From contig NZ_CP122459.1 of NCBI RefSeq assembly GCF_032598905.1, positions 1-64,000 on the forward strand: 64,000 nt of DNA. The letters run 5' to 3'. The DNA comes from Streptomyces sp. 11x1 (GTDB lineage Bacteria; Actinomycetota; Actinomycetes; Streptomycetales; Streptomycetaceae). Below the pieces are notes generated by a model. The model was given only the letters and a program-made list of their open reading frames with translations, was not told the DNA's origin and ran no database searches. The position numbers and the translations under genes are program-made. This document shows, in pieces, positions 4,087 through 42,888 of this stretch; within the stretch, counting starts at the first letter, position 1, and every line of letters starts with the position of its first letter.

Positions 4087-5112
4087 GTGTCCGAACAGTC
4101 TGATAGCGCAGCACAGGCCAACAAACCGGGCCTTTCTGAGCAGGCCCTCCGGTCGCTCAAGCACATCGTCGACGACGAGCCGATAGCCGACGGCGATCAC
4201 GGTTTACAGGAACTCGTCGACATGCACGCGGTTGTGCCCAACACTCATAGCCCGGGGCACTGGATCCTGCTCGACCCGCAGCAAACTGCACACAACCTGT
4301 TGTGGAACGGCATCACGGAGGTAACTGGCATCCTCAACCGCCTCGCCAAGGTGCCTAAGATCACCGAAGTGCTGGCCGTGGAGCACGACCGCGGTAAGTG
4401 GCGCGACGGTGTTGGCAGCAAGTACTTCGACGACCCCGACCAGATCAACGCACAACTCGACAAGATCATGGCAGGGGCAACCGAAGAGCTGTTGACTGCA
4501 CAGCCCCGCAAGAGGTCAAAGTCTCTGCTCACGATGGCAATGCCCCGAGACGTCGCCCTGCTCGAACGCGGATGCACCATGCGCACGTTGTACCCCTACA
4601 GCGCCAGGGTCGGAGTCGTGGAACCGAAGTGGATGAGGCAGATGGCCAAACAGGGCGCCGCCGTACGCACGCTCTCCATCCCATTCCCCCGCATGATCAT
4701 CGTCGACCGGAGGCACGCGTTCATTGAGGATCTGGTCATCGATGGCGCACCACCGAACGCGGGTTGGTACGTGACCGACCGGCCCGTCGTCGAGTGGATC
4801 TCAATGATCTTTGACCTCTACTGGGCCCGCGCCGATACCTGGTCGCAGCCCCTGGACCACTCTGGCCACGTCACCAGCCCGATTCAGCGGGCCATCCTCC
4901 GGGAGCTAGTGGCTGGCTTCGACCAGAAGCAGATCGCGGGGCGCCTGCAGATCAGCGACAAGACTTTGTCCAACCATCTCGTCGATTTGCGCACCAAGCT
5001 GGGGCTGCGCACCACGTACCAGCTCATGCACTGGTGGGCAACGTCGCAGGAGAACTCGTCGGTTCTCGAACTTCGGCCTGGGGAGGAGCCTCCCAACTTT
5101 CCTGGTCCGTAG
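4087..5112 (+). CDS. LuxR-type HTH regulator with TrmB-like N-terminal part
   Basis: GTG at 4087 was chosen because GAAGG lies eight bases upstream; an ATG at 4018 would add 23 residues without a ribosome site. The product has about 341 residues. The N-terminal part (SEQALRSLKHIVDDEP, then LLDPQQTAHNLLWNGITEV) and the middle (PRDVALLERGCTMRTLYPYSA) resemble TrmB/PLD-like sensory regions seen in actinobacterial LuxR proteins. The C-terminus holds a LuxR HTH: SPIQRAILRELVAGFDQKQIAGRLQ, split as IQRAILRELV and KQIAGRLQISDKTLSNHL. Its neighbour is the DSAWG peptide gene, suggesting a signal-receptor pair. Confidence 0.85.
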   Translation: MSEQSDSAAQANKPGLSEQALRSLKHIVDDEPIADGDHGLQELVDMHAVVPNTHSPGHWILLDPQQTAHNLLWNGITEVTGILNRLAKVPKITEVLAVEHDRGKWRDGVGSKYFDDPDQINAQLDKIMAGATEELLTAQPRKRSKSLLTMAMPRDVALLERGCTMRTLYPYSARVGVVEPKWMRQMAKQGAAVRTLSIPFPRMIIVDRRHAFIEDLVIDGAPPNAGWYVTDRPVVEWISMIFDLYWARADTWSQPLDHSGHVTSPIQRAILRELVAGFDQKQIAGRLQISDKTLSNHLVDLRTKLGLRTTYQLMHWWATSQENSSVLELRPGEEPPNFPGP

Positions 5113-5999
5113 AGGCACTGATCGACGGAGCTTCTCGCGCCTTGTTCTGGTTCATCGCGCACAACGCGGCAGAGGGCTCTGAGCCCCCAACCCCCCGCCG
5201 GCCCCGTGGCGCTGGACCCGCGCCTGACTTCGGCGCAAGCGCCTCAATCCCGAACCTACTGCCTTCGCTTCGCCGGATGCCGGGCGCGCAGGCCTGAAGT
5301 GGTGCAGACCGCAAGGAGGAGGCGTGGTTGCTCCCTCGAAGTGGTTGCTGGAGGCATACGCGCGCCTGATTCCTTCGGCTGACTGCGCCGTCGTGGCTGA
5401 CTTTCGGTGGCTGAGGTCCAAGAGGGGCAGCAACGAGAGCACAGGTGGGAGATGAAGCTGCAGGTGACCACACAGGGCCCCGGCGCTCGGCAGCGCGAGC
5501 GGTGCGCGCAACTACGAGACGGGTTCGCGCTGGCGAGCGCCGGGGGAGCGGGGTCCAGGGGCCGGCGAAGGCCCCTGGTACCACCGGGCTCTGTGCGGCG
5601 CCGTTTGTGCTTGCGTTAGAGCGGGGGGTCAGGTATCACGCGCGCGCGCACGATATAAGAAGTGAGGCTCTGCAAAGTACCTGGCCAGAGGCTTGTTACT
5701 TGCTAGTAAGGTACGCCAGAGGCAACCTTCGAGCCGTTTGACGTTGCCCCTGACGCCACAACAGAAGCCTGAATGCAACGTATAGTTGCACAACTTCCAG
5801 GCCTGCCCCGAGCGTTCATGTCGGGCACACGATGAAGCTCAAGCTGTAGACATACCGATTCACCGACTCCTCGACGTACGTCAGGGGCTACCTTCGACAC
5901 GCCGAGTGCCACTATTCATTGCACTTGTGCCGTCTATAGTTGCCTCCGGTAGTAGGGTGCTCCTCGTCTGGTATTCGATCTTGAGGAGCGTATGACCCC
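5113..5999. other. Intergenic region with GCAAC/GTTGC motifs, no convincing gene
   Basis: No frame here has credible codon use or a ribosome site. The right half has lower GC and contains several related short motifs: GGCAAC near 5719, GTTGCC near 5743, the dyad GCAAC/GTTGC at 5775-5789, and a second TATAGTTGC at 5935-5943 matching 5781-5789. A small dyad TTACT/AGTAA lies near 5694-5707. The position directly upstream of the two RepL-like genes makes it a candidate replication or operator region. Confidence 0.45.
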
Positions 6000-37552: not shown

Positions 37553-38080
37553 GTGACCGCGCTACACCGCGCCGTCCTCGCGATCGTCGGGTACGTCGCC
37601 GCCCTGATCGCTGCGAACTGGGCGACCTCCCACTACGGGCTCGTCCCTGTCGGCTTCGGGCAGACAGCCACCGCCGGCACCGTCGCCGCAGGCGGCGCGC
37701 TCATGCTGCGCAACGTCGTACAAGACCAGCTCGGCCGGTACGCCGTCGTCGTGGCCGTGCTGTTCGGATCGCTGCTGTCCGCGCTCACCAGTGCTCCGGC
37801 CGTCGCGCTCGCCTCCGGCTGCGCCGTGCTGATCTCCGAGCTCGCTGACACCGCCGTCTACACCCCCCTGCGTAAACGGGGCTGGGTCCGCGCGGTCGTA
37901 CCCGCGACCCTGTTCGGCGCCCTCCTCGACACCGTGGTGTTCCTGCACCTGGCCGGGTTCCCGGTGTGGCCACAGGTGCCCGGACAGCTCGTTGGCAAGG
38001 CGTGGGCCGTCGCCGTCCCGGTCGCCGCGGTGCTCACCATGCGCGCCATCCGGGCCCGGCGGCTCATCGCTGCCCGCTGA
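37553..38080 (+). CDS. VUT/YhhQ family queuosine-precursor transporter
   Basis: GTG 37553 has GGAG upstream. The 175-residue product has about five to six hydrophobic helices (AVLAIVGYVAALIAANWATS, ALMLRNVVQDQLGRYAVVVA, GCAVLISELADTAVYTPLR). The SELADTAVYTPLRKRGW region is the hallmark of VUT/YhhQ (COG1738) proteins, which import 7-deazaguanine precursors of queuosine. Its stop lies six bases before the transglycosylase-like gene, a telling pair. Confidence 0.85.
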   Translation: MTALHRAVLAIVGYVAALIAANWATSHYGLVPVGFGQTATAGTVAAGGALMLRNVVQDQLGRYAVVVAVLFGSLLSALTSAPAVALASGCAVLISELADTAVYTPLRKRGWVRAVVPATLFGALLDTVVFLHLAGFPVWPQVPGQLVGKAWAVAVPVAAVLTMRAIRARRLIAAR

Positions 38081-38086
38081 GCGACG

Positions 38087-38704
38087 GTGCTGTACCTGAC
38101 CACGCCGTCAGGGCCCCAGGTCCGGGCGGCCATGGCGGACAGGGTGGGCCTGGCCTGGATGAACACGCCGGCGTCCGGGCACATCCTCCCGCCGGGGCAG
38201 ATATGGGCGGCGGACAATGGCCGCTTTGGGAAGGGCTGGCCAGGTCACGCCGCGTGGATCCGCTGGCTGGCCGGTCTCGCCGACCGGGCAGGTGACTGCC
38301 TGTTCGCGGTCGCTCCCGATGTGCCGATGGACGCGGCTGCCACTCTCGCCGAGTCGCCGCCCTGGTTCCCCCGGATCCGCGCTCTCGGCTATCCGGCCGC
38401 ATTTGCAGCCCAGGACGGCGCCGAAGACCTGCCGATCCCCTGGGACGACTTCGACGTGCTGTTTTTGGCCGGTTCCACGGACTGGAAACTCGGCCCCGGG
38501 GCGCGGCAGATGGCCGCCGAGGCGAAGCGACGGGGCATGGGCGTTCACATGGGCCGGGTGAACTCCCTGAAGCGCCTGCGGTACGCGGCGTCCATCGGGT
38601 GCGACAGCGCCGACGGCACCTACGTGGCGTTCGGGCCCGACAAGAACCTCCCCAAGTGCCTGGCCTGGGTCGCGGAGGTCGACAGCCAGACGGCGCTGTT
38701 CTGA
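38087..38704 (+). CDS. DpdA/TGT-like 7-deazaguanine transglycosylase
   Basis: GTG 38087 gives 205 residues, shorter than tRNA-guanine transglycosylases (about 370). WAADNGRFGKG can hold the general acid in the DxGxF position, FAVAPDVPMD and AAFAAQDGAED follow, FLAGSTDWKLG resembles the base-binding Gly loop, and GVHMGRVNSLKRLRYA then GCDSADGT provide the putative nucleophile Asp. Such short proteins occur in actinophages as DpdA-like or queuine-transferase-like proteins that put 7-deazaguanines into DNA. The neighbouring transporter supports that role; direct evidence for DNA rather than tRNA is lacking. Confidence 0.75.
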   Translation: MLYLTTPSGPQVRAAMADRVGLAWMNTPASGHILPPGQIWAADNGRFGKGWPGHAAWIRWLAGLADRAGDCLFAVAPDVPMDAAATLAESPPWFPRIRALGYPAAFAAQDGAEDLPIPWDDFDVLFLAGSTDWKLGPGARQMAAEAKRRGMGVHMGRVNSLKRLRYAASIGCDSADGTYVAFGPDKNLPKCLAWVAEVDSQTALF

Positions 38705-38806
38705 CAGCGAGTGACGCAAGCAGTCAGCCGCGCACAGCATCCCGCCACGCCCGCCGTTCCCAAGGTCCCGCCGGGGCCGCGTGTCCGGGCAGAACGGAGA
38801 CCTGCC

Positions 38807-39229
38807 GTGGCATCCCGCCGCCGTACCGGTCCCAGCGACGACGTCCGCGCCACCGTGTTCGATCGGGACAAGCACCGCTGCGTGCGTTGCGGATCCGGTC
38901 GCCGCCTGACGATCCACCACCGGGTGAACCGCGGGATGGGCTCGTCACGCGAGGAGTGGATCAACCGCCCCCAGAACCTGCTCACGGCCTGCCACGACTG
39001 CAACATGTGGTTCGAAGACCACCCGCGCGAGTCGTACAGCGAGGGGTGGAAGGTTCGCCGGCCGATGCTGCCCACGGAGATGACCGTGCTCTACCCCGAC
39101 GGCCGCCAGTACGCCCTGTTCCCCGACGGCACCAGAACCGCGGTGACCGCAGCATCCGTAGCCCGCTCAACGAGTCATCCAACGCGTGAAGTTGCCACGT
39201 TTCCGCAGGTCGCACCGGAGTTGCGGTAG
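38807..39229 (+). CDS. HNH endonuclease
   Basis: GTG 38807 has GGAG upstream; GTG 38711 would add an unconserved tail. The 140-residue product has RDKHRCVRCGSGRRLTIHH, the N of NRPQNLLTACHDC, and CxxC pairs that bind the structural zinc. LTIHHRVNRG gives the HH of the HNH motif. HNH nucleases near terminase genes often assist phage DNA packaging; a homing or restriction role is the alternative. The 3' end runs into 24-bp repeats. Confidence 0.88.
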   Translation: MASRRRTGPSDDVRATVFDRDKHRCVRCGSGRRLTIHHRVNRGMGSSREEWINRPQNLLTACHDCNMWFEDHPRESYSEGWKVRRPMLPTEMTVLYPDGRQYALFPDGTRTAVTAASVARSTSHPTREVATFPQVAPELR

Positions 39230-40934: not shown

Positions 40935-41100
40935 GCCTAATCTCCGGCGGTAACCCGCCCGGCGCCCGACCCCTCCCCCCTGGTCGAGCGCAGCGGCACA
41001 CCCCGCCGGCCGCCCGGTCGGCTCCCCCGTCCGTACCGCCGGGCGTCGCGCACCGTGCGGGCCGGGACACAAACCCCCTCCGGCCTGCACGGTGCGCCAC

Positions 41101-42888
41101 ATGCGAACCGCCGCCCCGCGCCGACCGTCCCGGCCCACCGCCGTGACACAGGCCGCCGCAGTGGGCGGCCGACCCGGGGTGAAGTCGAATCTCGCCGCCC
41201 GGCTCGCCGACGATCTCCTTCGCGCCCCCGCCGGCCTGCGCCGCCAAGCCCTCAAAGAGCACGTCGGCGTCGCTGAACTCCCTCACCTGCTGCGCGAAGT
41301 GGAACGGGCCGTCGGCTCACGGTTCGGACTGTGGGCCGACACCCCCAGCGGCTTCATTGAGGACGTTCTCGGCGAAACGATCTGGTCGAAACAGCGGCAG
41401 ATCGTCGACTCGGTCCTCGACGCCAAACGCATCGCCGTCCCCGCAGGCTTCGGCGTCGGCAAGACGTGGATCGCAGCGAGATTGTGCGCGTGGGCCGGGT
41501 GCGTGAACCCCGCCGGGACCATGGTCATCGTCACCACGGCGACACGATTCCGCCAGGTCAGAAACCAGCTCTGGCCACACATCCGAAAGACGATCGCCCG
41601 CGCCGGGCTCCCCGGGCGCGCGGACACGACCCAGTGGAAGATCCCCGACGCCTACGGCAACGAGGTCCTGGTCGCCTACGGATTCTCCGCCCCGGAGCAC
41701 GACGAGGCGGCCATGCAGGGCATCCACGGCACGCCCAAGCTCTTGATCATCGTCGACGAGGCCGGCGGTATCGCCCGCACCGTGGGCAACGGCACCAACA
41801 ACCTCTTGACCGGCGACGCGAAGATGCTGGCGATCGGCAACCCCGCCATGGACGACCCGCGCAGCTGGTTCGAGCTGCTGTGCGAGGAAGGCGAGGACCC
41901 CGAGGAGCCGACCACCATCACCATCCCCATCGCGACCTTCGACAGCCCCGCCATCACCGGCGAACGCGTCCCGTACTGCCGGGACTGCCCCGACGGCGTT
42001 CCCAAGCACTCCCTCGCCATCCACCTCCCCGATCAGGACTGGGTGGACCGCACCCTGCGCGAGTACGGCGAAGATCATCCGTACGTGATCGCCAAGGTCC
42101 ACGCCAAGTTCCCCAAGGGCGGCGGAGGCAAGGCGATACCAACGCTGTGGGTCGAGTACGCCCAGCAGGTCGAAGACCCCACCGGCCCCGGCTACGTCCG
42201 CCTGTGCGACCTCGGTCTGAAGGGCGAGACCGCCACCCACACCGTCAAGCGGGGCGCCTGGGTCCGCCTCGGTGTCGACGTCGCCGCCGACGGTGGTGAC
42301 GAGTTCACGATCTACCGGTGCGTCGGCGACGCGATCGAACACCGCCATCACTCCAGCGGCAGCGAGAACGACAATCAGGTCAAGGTCGCCCAGCGGATCT
42401 TGGAGGAGATCGAGCAGGCGCAGCGCCTGGCCGACGCCCTCGGCTCCACCGCCCCCGTCCGCGTCAAGATCGACCAGAACGGCCTGGGCCACGGTGCCGT
42501 CGGCATGCTCAAGACCTGGGCGGAGAACGGTCGGCACCGCGCCGAGATCGTTGGCGTCATGGTCTCCGAGTCCCCCGGCCACGACGACCCGGGCGCCGTC
42601 ATGCGGCCCTTCAAGAAGCGCGACGAGATGTGGCTCGCCACCCGCGCGCTCCTGCAGCCCGACCCGGGCACCGGCGTCGGCCGGCTCCGGCTGCGCACCG
42701 ACCGCAACGCCGCAATCCAGCTCACCACCCCGAAGCTGCAGTACAACAGCGGCGGACACACGGTCATCGAGTCGAAGAAGGCGATGCGCGCCCGCGGCAT
42801 GAAGAGCCCCGACCGGGCCGAGGCCGTTCTCCTGGCCGTGTACGAGCCGGACCCGATCATCCGCCGCGGCGGCGGCCTGCTGGTGTAA
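41101..42888 (+). CDS. Phage terminase large subunit-like ATPase/nuclease
   Basis: About 595 residues. Walker A is AGFGVGKT at about 115-122, Walker B is LLIIVDEA at about 213-220, and MLAIGNPAMDDP follows as coupling motif. The C-terminal nuclease begins with RLGVDVAADGGDEFTIYR, the RNase H-like first strand with Asp, and continues with VKIDQNGLGHGAVGML. This layout is TerL, which pumps DNA into phage capsids. No portal or capsid gene is seen nearby. ATG 41101 lacks a clear ribosome site; GTG 41143 or 41179 are alternatives. Confidence 0.88.
   Translation: MRTAAPRRPSRPTAVTQAAAVGGRPGVKSNLAARLADDLLRAPAGLRRQALKEHVGVAELPHLLREVERAVGSRFGLWADTPSGFIEDVLGETIWSKQRQIVDSVLDAKRIAVPAGFGVGKTWIAARLCAWAGCVNPAGTMVIVTTATRFRQVRNQLWPHIRKTIARAGLPGRADTTQWKIPDAYGNEVLVAYGFSAPEHDEAAMQGIHGTPKLLIIVDEAGGIARTVGNGTNNLLTGDAKMLAIGNPAMDDPRSWFELLCEEGEDPEEPTTITIPIATFDSPAITGERVPYCRDCPDGVPKHSLAIHLPDQDWVDRTLREYGEDHPYVIAKVHAKFPKGGGGKAIPTLWVEYAQQVEDPTGPGYVRLCDLGLKGETATHTVKRGAWVRLGVDVAADGGDEFTIYRCVGDAIEHRHHSSGSENDNQVKVAQRILEEIEQAQRLADALGSTAPVRVKIDQNGLGHGAVGMLKTWAENGRHRAEIVGVMVSESPGHDDPGAVMRPFKKRDEMWLATRALLQPDPGTGVGRLRLRTDRNAAIQLTTPKLQYNSGGHTVIESKKAMRARGMKSPDRAEAVLLAVYEPDPIIRRGGGLLV

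Follow-up and report, generated by a model that had tools for sequence, protein, structure and literature searches.

The window, i.e. the whole stretch of 64,000 bases analysed here, comprises bases 1-64000 of C2, the smaller (131,521 bases) of the two contigs of the 10.67 Mb genome of Streptomyces sp. 11x1, and contains two adjoining genes, for a VUT/YhhQ-type membrane transporter and for a short protein resembling the tRNA-guanine transglycosylase (TGT) and DpdA enzymes, referred to below as the mini-enzyme or mini-DpdA (Table 1). In the original prediction, the pair had been read as a possible salvage-only cassette that could import a ready-made 7-deazaguanine and insert it into the DNA of its element; the gene coordinates and the six-base spacing given there proved to be exact. 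Because C2 encodes a portal protein, a head protease, a tape measure, tail proteins, TerL and ParA, it is best read as a phage-plasmid, so that the supposed phage-derived setting was borne out. Purpose-built hidden Markov models (HMMs; E <= 0.01) found no QueC, QueD, QueE, FolE, FolE2 or full-size DpdA on the entire C2; the absence of the first four, claimed for the window, holds for the whole contig. No tRNA genes lie within the window. An HNH nuclease and a terminase are indeed present behind the pair, as had been noted, but they are ordinary phage neighbours and offer no evidence for the defence evasion that had been proposed.

Table 1. Position of the transporter-enzyme pair and of the neighbouring genes in the window
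Feature	Position	Strand	Remarks
VUT/YhhQ-type (Vut_1, COG1738-like) membrane transporter, 175 aa	37553..38080	+	GTG start, TGA end; predicted importer of preQ0 or related 7-deazaguanine
Intergenic gap, six bases (GCGACG)	38081..38086	+	between the VUT and mini-enzyme genes
Mini-DpdA/TGT-like enzyme, 205 aa, (beta/alpha)8 barrel, no zinc motif	38087..38704	+	GTG start; predicted guanine to 7-deazaguanine exchange
HNH nuclease	38711-39229		phrog_740, E 3e-30
TerL	41092-42888		phrog_2, E 3e-22

The short enzyme family

The 205-residue protein belongs to the unnamed family phrog_15826 (E 5e-81) and has 4870 homologues at E <= 1e-3. Pfam holds no family for it, hence no match to the TGT family PF01702, which was likewise absent from the 80 members of the mini-enzyme family scanned. 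The NCBIfam models, including the DpdA model NF041059, gave no match even at E <= 1, PADLOC recognised neither gene of the pair, and both single-sequence and profile searches of the sequences in the Protein Data Bank (PDB) reached chance level only. The AlphaFold2 model is a confident TIM barrel (pLDDT 96.2, pTM 0.92), for which Foldseek returned generic TIM barrels from the PDB, with no TGT among the best 50 matches listed; since so many generic barrels are matched, the fold alone was not taken as proof. The relationship to phage DpdA emerged from the profile-profile comparison with hhalign, in which the family was aligned to 10 phage DpdA proteins with a probability of 90.7 (E 1.2e-6, 113 columns), against 0.3 and 1.5 for the TIM-barrel controls rpe and pdxJ (single sequences), the corresponding value between phage and bacterial DpdA being 93.5. 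The comparison with the E. coli TGT was uninformative, with no detectable relationship.

Among 164 lineages of the viral sample described below, D78, Q109, G129, H154 and D176 are kept in all and D43 in 163, the conservation of D78, G129 and D176 following in part from the choice of the scan patterns. In the AlphaFold2 model each of these six residues is placed at a beta strand's C-terminal end or close to it, the layout being Asp after strand 3 and again after strand 4, Gln after strand 5, GG after strand 6 and Asp at strand 8. By analogy with TGT, we take D176 to be the Asp nucleophile, D43 the general acid/base, and D78, Q109 and G129 the base-reading residues. The motifs WAADNGRF, GVHMGRVNS and GCDSADGT, quoted earlier as being in the expected places, occupy residues 40-47, 152-160 and 171-178, and the CxCxxC zinc motif is missing from the full window protein and from the matched part of 169/169 lineages. 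The description of the protein as TGT/DpdA-like can therefore be kept as regards phage DpdA, on the strength of the profile-profile comparison, the fold and the residues, and has to be given up as regards membership in the DpdA family of NCBIfam or the TGT family of Pfam. On these sequence comparisons, the mini-enzymes form a short family of their own with kinship to phage DpdA, and are predicted to replace guanine by a 7-deazaguanine base through the transglycosylase chemistry of TGT and DpdA.

With phage DpdA of the Enterobacteria phage 9g / Nonagvirus type the family shares, besides the profile-level homology and the association with preQ0 supply, a common pattern (DNG/DSGA, PDVVGDxxAT/LDVIGDPxAT, LFIGG/YIxLGG); it differs in length, about 205 versus about 280-360 residues, and in being accompanied more often by VUT than by Que genes, insertion into DNA being a prediction for the short enzyme. 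The D/D/Q/GG/D motifs of bacterial DpdA (NF041059) follow the same order as those of the mini-enzyme when compared by eye, but that protein has about 406 residues, a zinc motif and, as its partners, DpdB and restriction genes; the mini family lacks both the motif and such partners. In SEA-PHAGES records the family is carried as 'DpdA-like tRNA-guanine transglycosylase' (Sonali gp81, Aoka gp40, Bhagsy gp55 and others), a name that is an annotation, and the VUT neighbour in the phage records examined as 'membrane protein', 'conserved polytopic membrane protein' or 'hypothetical protein'. Two adjoining genes of Microbacterium phage Megan are both annotated as queuine tRNA-ribosyltransferase. A longer, distant relative of the mini-enzyme occurs on plasmids, 105 of the 138 PLSDB records being from Pseudomonas; in one copy it has 286 residues and matches residues 86-205, and it is labelled hypothetical protein in the rows listed.

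Transporter and Que genes beside the enzyme

The assignment of the transporter to the VUT/YhhQ type was upheld by the Pfam Vut_1 model PF02592 (39.4 bits, gathering cut-off 27.2) and accompanied by a match to phrog_4899 (E 3e-36); the protein fell below the cut-offs of the 'queuosine precursor transporter' equivalog TIGR00697 (33.3 < 50.95 bits) and of the YhhQ model PRK11212 (24.6 < 252 bits). It is the sole match to PF02592 across the whole source genome.

The gene neighbourhoods of the family were surveyed in IMG/VR with three scans. In the first (A1), built on the alignment of 11 diverse family members and with flanks of 6 kb, the best 80 of 537 loci had a VUT gene in 59, QueC, QueD or QueE in 10, both in none and neither in 11. 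Two further scans were made with a distant Vibrio-type alignment (A7) and a mycobacteriophage-type one (A8), the best 80 loci being taken from each and 58 of the 80 in the latter being new. The pooled 218 loci were reduced to 190 by dropping 28 with shared sequence, and to 169 lineages by merging 21 at 90% identity. Near the mini-enzyme of these dereplicated lineages, VUT was found in 81, QueC/D/E in 31, both in 1 and neither in 58; where contigs are short, the supplier genes may fall beyond the stretch examined. The co-occurrence in a single lineage compares with 14.9 expected (hypergeometric P 3e-9). By set, the lineages with VUT only, Que only, both and neither numbered 54/8/0/11 for A1 (P 6e-6), 20/5/0/10 for A8 (P 0.009) and 6/17/1/37 for A7, where the deviation was not significant (P 0.33). 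In the subset with at least 2.5 kb upstream and at least 1.5 kb downstream, the figures were 68, 23, 1 and 35. The only contig with both (L191, identical to L406) also encodes a full-size DpdA, and its VUT gene, 2.5 kb away from the mini-enzyme, is the only non-adjacent one among the 81.

The linkage is tight and of constant orientation. The 81 VUT and 66 Que genes counted all run in the same direction as the mini-enzyme; VUT lies upstream in 72 lineages, downstream in 9, its distance from the mini-enzyme being within 30 nt in 66/81 and within 500 nt in 14 more, and the nearest Que gene lies within 35 nt in 24 of the 31 Que lineages. This same-strand adjacency or overlap, recurring across phages, suggests translational coupling of the pair. 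On a FastTree tree of 166 rows, at least 14 switches between VUT and Que were counted, with only 33 of the 163 inner branches well supported. At the TerL-anchored control loci, VUT, Que genes and the mini-enzyme were found in 0/17 (stretches of up to 6 kb a side, several of them shorter). In the control with full-size phage DpdA, i.e. the best 80 of 550 loci near one Nonagvirus protein and hence a sample of one clade, Que genes accompanied 77 and VUT 4, all four with Que genes as well; the mini-enzyme was present in 1/80 of these loci, and full-size DpdA in 6/218 mini-enzyme loci within the stretches examined. Because the two controls differ from it in this way, the make-or-import pattern looks particular to the short enzyme.

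Of the 22 phage records with the 205-residue family, 15 contain a VUT match, namely the 12 mycobacteriophage entries, the two of ReqiPine5 and Aoka. Together with the IMG/VR counts, they make strongly positive the check on co-occurrence of both genes in actinophages that the original prediction had proposed. Among the eight phages whose gene neighbourhoods were inspected, VUT overlaps the mini-enzyme gene in ReqiPine5 and Bhagsy and lies upstream of it in Aoka, with one small gene between; in place of VUT, Sonali carries QueC, QueD, QueE, GTP cyclohydrolase and, as a second enzyme of the kind, full-size DpdA, and near the mini-enzyme of Vibrio phage R29Z lie QueD, GTP cyclohydrolase and a DpdA-like gene. 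Two Erythrobacter phages and one Synechococcus phage had neither VUT nor Que genes in the flanks examined. The short enzyme and full-size DpdA occur together in Sonali (gp81 and gp87), R29Z and the further loci L090, L191, L192 and L194; as they coexist, they may differ in the base inserted or in the sites on which they act. Genes for PAPS-reductase-like PP-loop proteins recur near the short enzyme in actinophages (e.g. ReqiPine5 gp02, 4709-5626 of the stretch L017), in an Erythrobacter phage and on a Burkholderia plasmid.

An enzyme accompanied by a transporter or by base-making genes, and rarely by both, suggests that the transporter feeds it. Since VUT and QueCDE are so seldom found together, they appear to stand in for one another as sources of a single substrate, in the simplest case preQ0, and preQ0 as the base is strongly implied. 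The VUT protein of the pair is accordingly predicted to import a ready-made 7-deazaguanine, with this exclusivity as its indirect support.

The host genome and the genus Streptomyces

The source chromosome (C1) carries a Dpd island at about 7680500-7703800, where FolE2-QueD-QueE-QueC lie beside DpdC-DpdB-DpdA-DpdB, followed by DpdE, DpdF, DpdG (a weak match), DpdH and DpdJ; DpdD, DpdI and DpdK were not identified in it. By its gene content, this is a Dpd island with the modification genes and most of the restriction genes. The host DpdA scored 620 bits with NF041059 and, below the cut-off, 18.1 bits with the TGT model PF01702, for which there was no match in the source genome or in any of 121 genomes of the genus (0/121; the control matched 14/14). 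An imported base would thus find no ordinary queuosine enzyme there. With preQ0 genes and a Dpd island on its chromosome, the cell can make preQ0, so that 'salvage-only' describes the element, whose contig lacks Que genes, and fails for the cell, which has a canonical DpdA system.

A survey of 392 Streptomyces genomes, in which the mini-enzyme search scored 8 candidates per genome and VUT was counted above the Pfam cut-off (21 of 23 matching genomes), found the mini-enzyme in 24, DpdA in 23 and VUT in 21. With the source genome excluded, DpdA was present in 13 of 20 VUT genomes against 1.1 expected. In one genome (G130), VUT adjoins the preQ0 genes of the Dpd system in the order DpdA, QueC, QueE, QueD, FolE2, VUT; bacterial Dpd islands elsewhere likewise have YhhQ/VUT near some of them, in about 9% according to the part of the GATOR-GC report concerned (PMC11888242). 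VUT stands beside the mini-enzyme in 6 genomes, the source included, although in one of them (G036) the genes are about 500 bases apart and the mini-enzyme has an internal stop. DpdA was found in 3 of the 5 pair genomes other than the source against 0.28 expected (P 0.0014; DpdA overall in 22/391), this being a small sample uncorrected for kinship, and in 1 of the 18 genomes having the mini-enzyme without VUT alongside, against 1.0 expected. In four genomes of the genus (L327-L330), the flanks of about 6 kb around VUT contain none of the mini-enzyme, DpdA and Que genes, L329 having a PP-loop gene nearby.

A second mini-enzyme, 64% identical to the window copy, lies in the source genome at C1:22620-23237. 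There, as in 7 of the 12 Streptomyces-type loci compared (this one included), the gene stands directly behind that of a large PP-loop-like protein (431 residues in one locus, L006) with an 'NWGLGADS' motif recognised by eye and no Pfam match; the islands with both may also carry DprA and PAPS-reductase-like genes. This partner is possibly a third supply route or belongs to another modification.

Probable target of the enzyme and possible meaning of the pair

The pair is probably a compact kit for import and DNA base modification, found in phages and phage-plasmids and best known here from the actinobacterial ones. VUT would bring a ready-made 7-deazaguanine, most likely preQ0, into the cell, and mini-DpdA would put it in the place of guanine in the DNA of the element itself by transglycosylase chemistry of the TGT/DpdA kind, so that the modified DNA would be hidden from restriction; in relatives of the kit with QueC, QueE and QueD instead of the transporter, the base would be made rather than imported. 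The family, its fold, the conserved residues, the tight same-strand linkage and the make-or-import exclusivity come directly from the computation; that the base is preQ0, the target DNA and the benefit protection is inferred.

Other substrates and roles were weighed against this reading. The mini-enzyme could instead place preQ0 or preQ1 in the tRNA of a host lacking TGT, as a minimal queuosine-type system of phages for tuning translation. A transporter of the queuosine-precursor family beside a TGT-like enzyme would suit such a system, and a new tRNA activity is conceivable in a genus with no TGT of its own. But the family aligns to phage DpdA and not detectably to E. coli TGT, and in Sonali and R29Z its neighbours include full-size DpdA and genes for preQ0; tRNA use was marked down because the zinc motif, kept by the host's bacterial DpdA, is missing from the matched part of all the lineages, and we consider it improbable. 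About equally improbable is a non-catalytic helper, or a base-removing or repair partner, of a DpdA supplied in trans by the phage or the host. That some IMG/VR loci, like Sonali and R29Z, have the short enzyme alongside full-size DpdA, and that the present host has a DpdA, would fit it, yet 163 of the 164 lineages retain the catalytic-type residues, and the two enzymes seldom share a locus.

Somewhat less probable still is an immune or regulatory module in which the mini-enzyme acts on a protein-linked deazaguanine in the manner of Cap10, described in the relevant part of PMC11996544 as a TGT-family barrel acting on deazaguanine in the type IV cyclic-oligonucleotide-based antiphage signalling system (CBASS). 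Cap10 works with Cap9 and CdnD, and neither was seen beside the pair, where the three neighbours scanned are the HNH nuclease, TerL and an unnamed protein; no CD-NTase model, and none for these partners, was run over the whole element. Although Cap9 is QueC-like, no Que gene stands in the stretch examined in 138 of the 169 lineages, and the QueC and PP-loop HMMs match nothing on the contig, nor did PADLOC respond to the pair. Chance adjacency of an unrelated transporter and a barrel protein of other function, which the many TIM barrels matched by fold searches might by themselves have allowed, was rejected as most implausible, being contradicted by the 81/169 lineages with VUT always on the same strand, the 0/17 control loci and the QueCDE genes that elsewhere take VUT's place.

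As a probable compact kit for import and DNA modification, the pair belongs to a kind of system already known. The passages of Hutinet et al. 2019 (PMC6884629) on this subject describe the phages without preQ0 genes, which form the largest group among those with DpdA, as hard to predict in modification status, propose supply by the host or uptake for such phages, and report phage YhhQ homologues as uncorrelated with any phage group. For the phages EC151, Seuratvirus and Vid5, a VUT/COG1738-type preQ0 transporter has been linked with 7-deazaguanine DNA modification (excerpts of PMC8310023 and PMC6266253), where it supplements the preQ0/archaeosine pathway genes, while in the mini-enzyme pair it replaces them. 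The model of a phage VUT added to an existing Que pathway, taken from EC151 and Vid5, was considered and does not describe the mini-enzyme family. The compact pair and the make-or-import rule were not found in the literature searched, which did not cover the 2024 review of 7-deazaguanine biology in Microbiology and Molecular Biology Reviews, and within those searches they are new here.

A more tentative extension, which we hold to be possible but rather doubtful, is that the kit serves as a passport against Dpd: the self base in the phage-plasmid DNA would evade the restriction arm of the chromosomal 7-deazaguanine system, and the carriers would prefer Streptomyces having one. The enrichment of DpdA in the pair genomes is consistent with a part played in overcoming Dpd, but also with a kit that simply works best where preQ0 is made. 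If the passport reading were true, mini-DpdA, whose partner can change between import and synthesis genes, would be the phage counterpart of Dpd immunity. As the pair and a chromosomal Dpd island are found in one cell, a phage counter-measure to Dpd is directly testable.

The short family, unlike the YhhQ homologues in the pertinent passages of Hutinet et al. 2019 (PMC6884629), shows a clear pattern of either an import gene or synthesis genes and seldom both, which predicts the phages without Que genes that should carry modified DNA. A minimal enzyme of about 205 residues may be a convenient means of introducing 7-deazaguanine into DNA, and the VUT genes of phages gain a likely job in bacteria without a queuosine enzyme.
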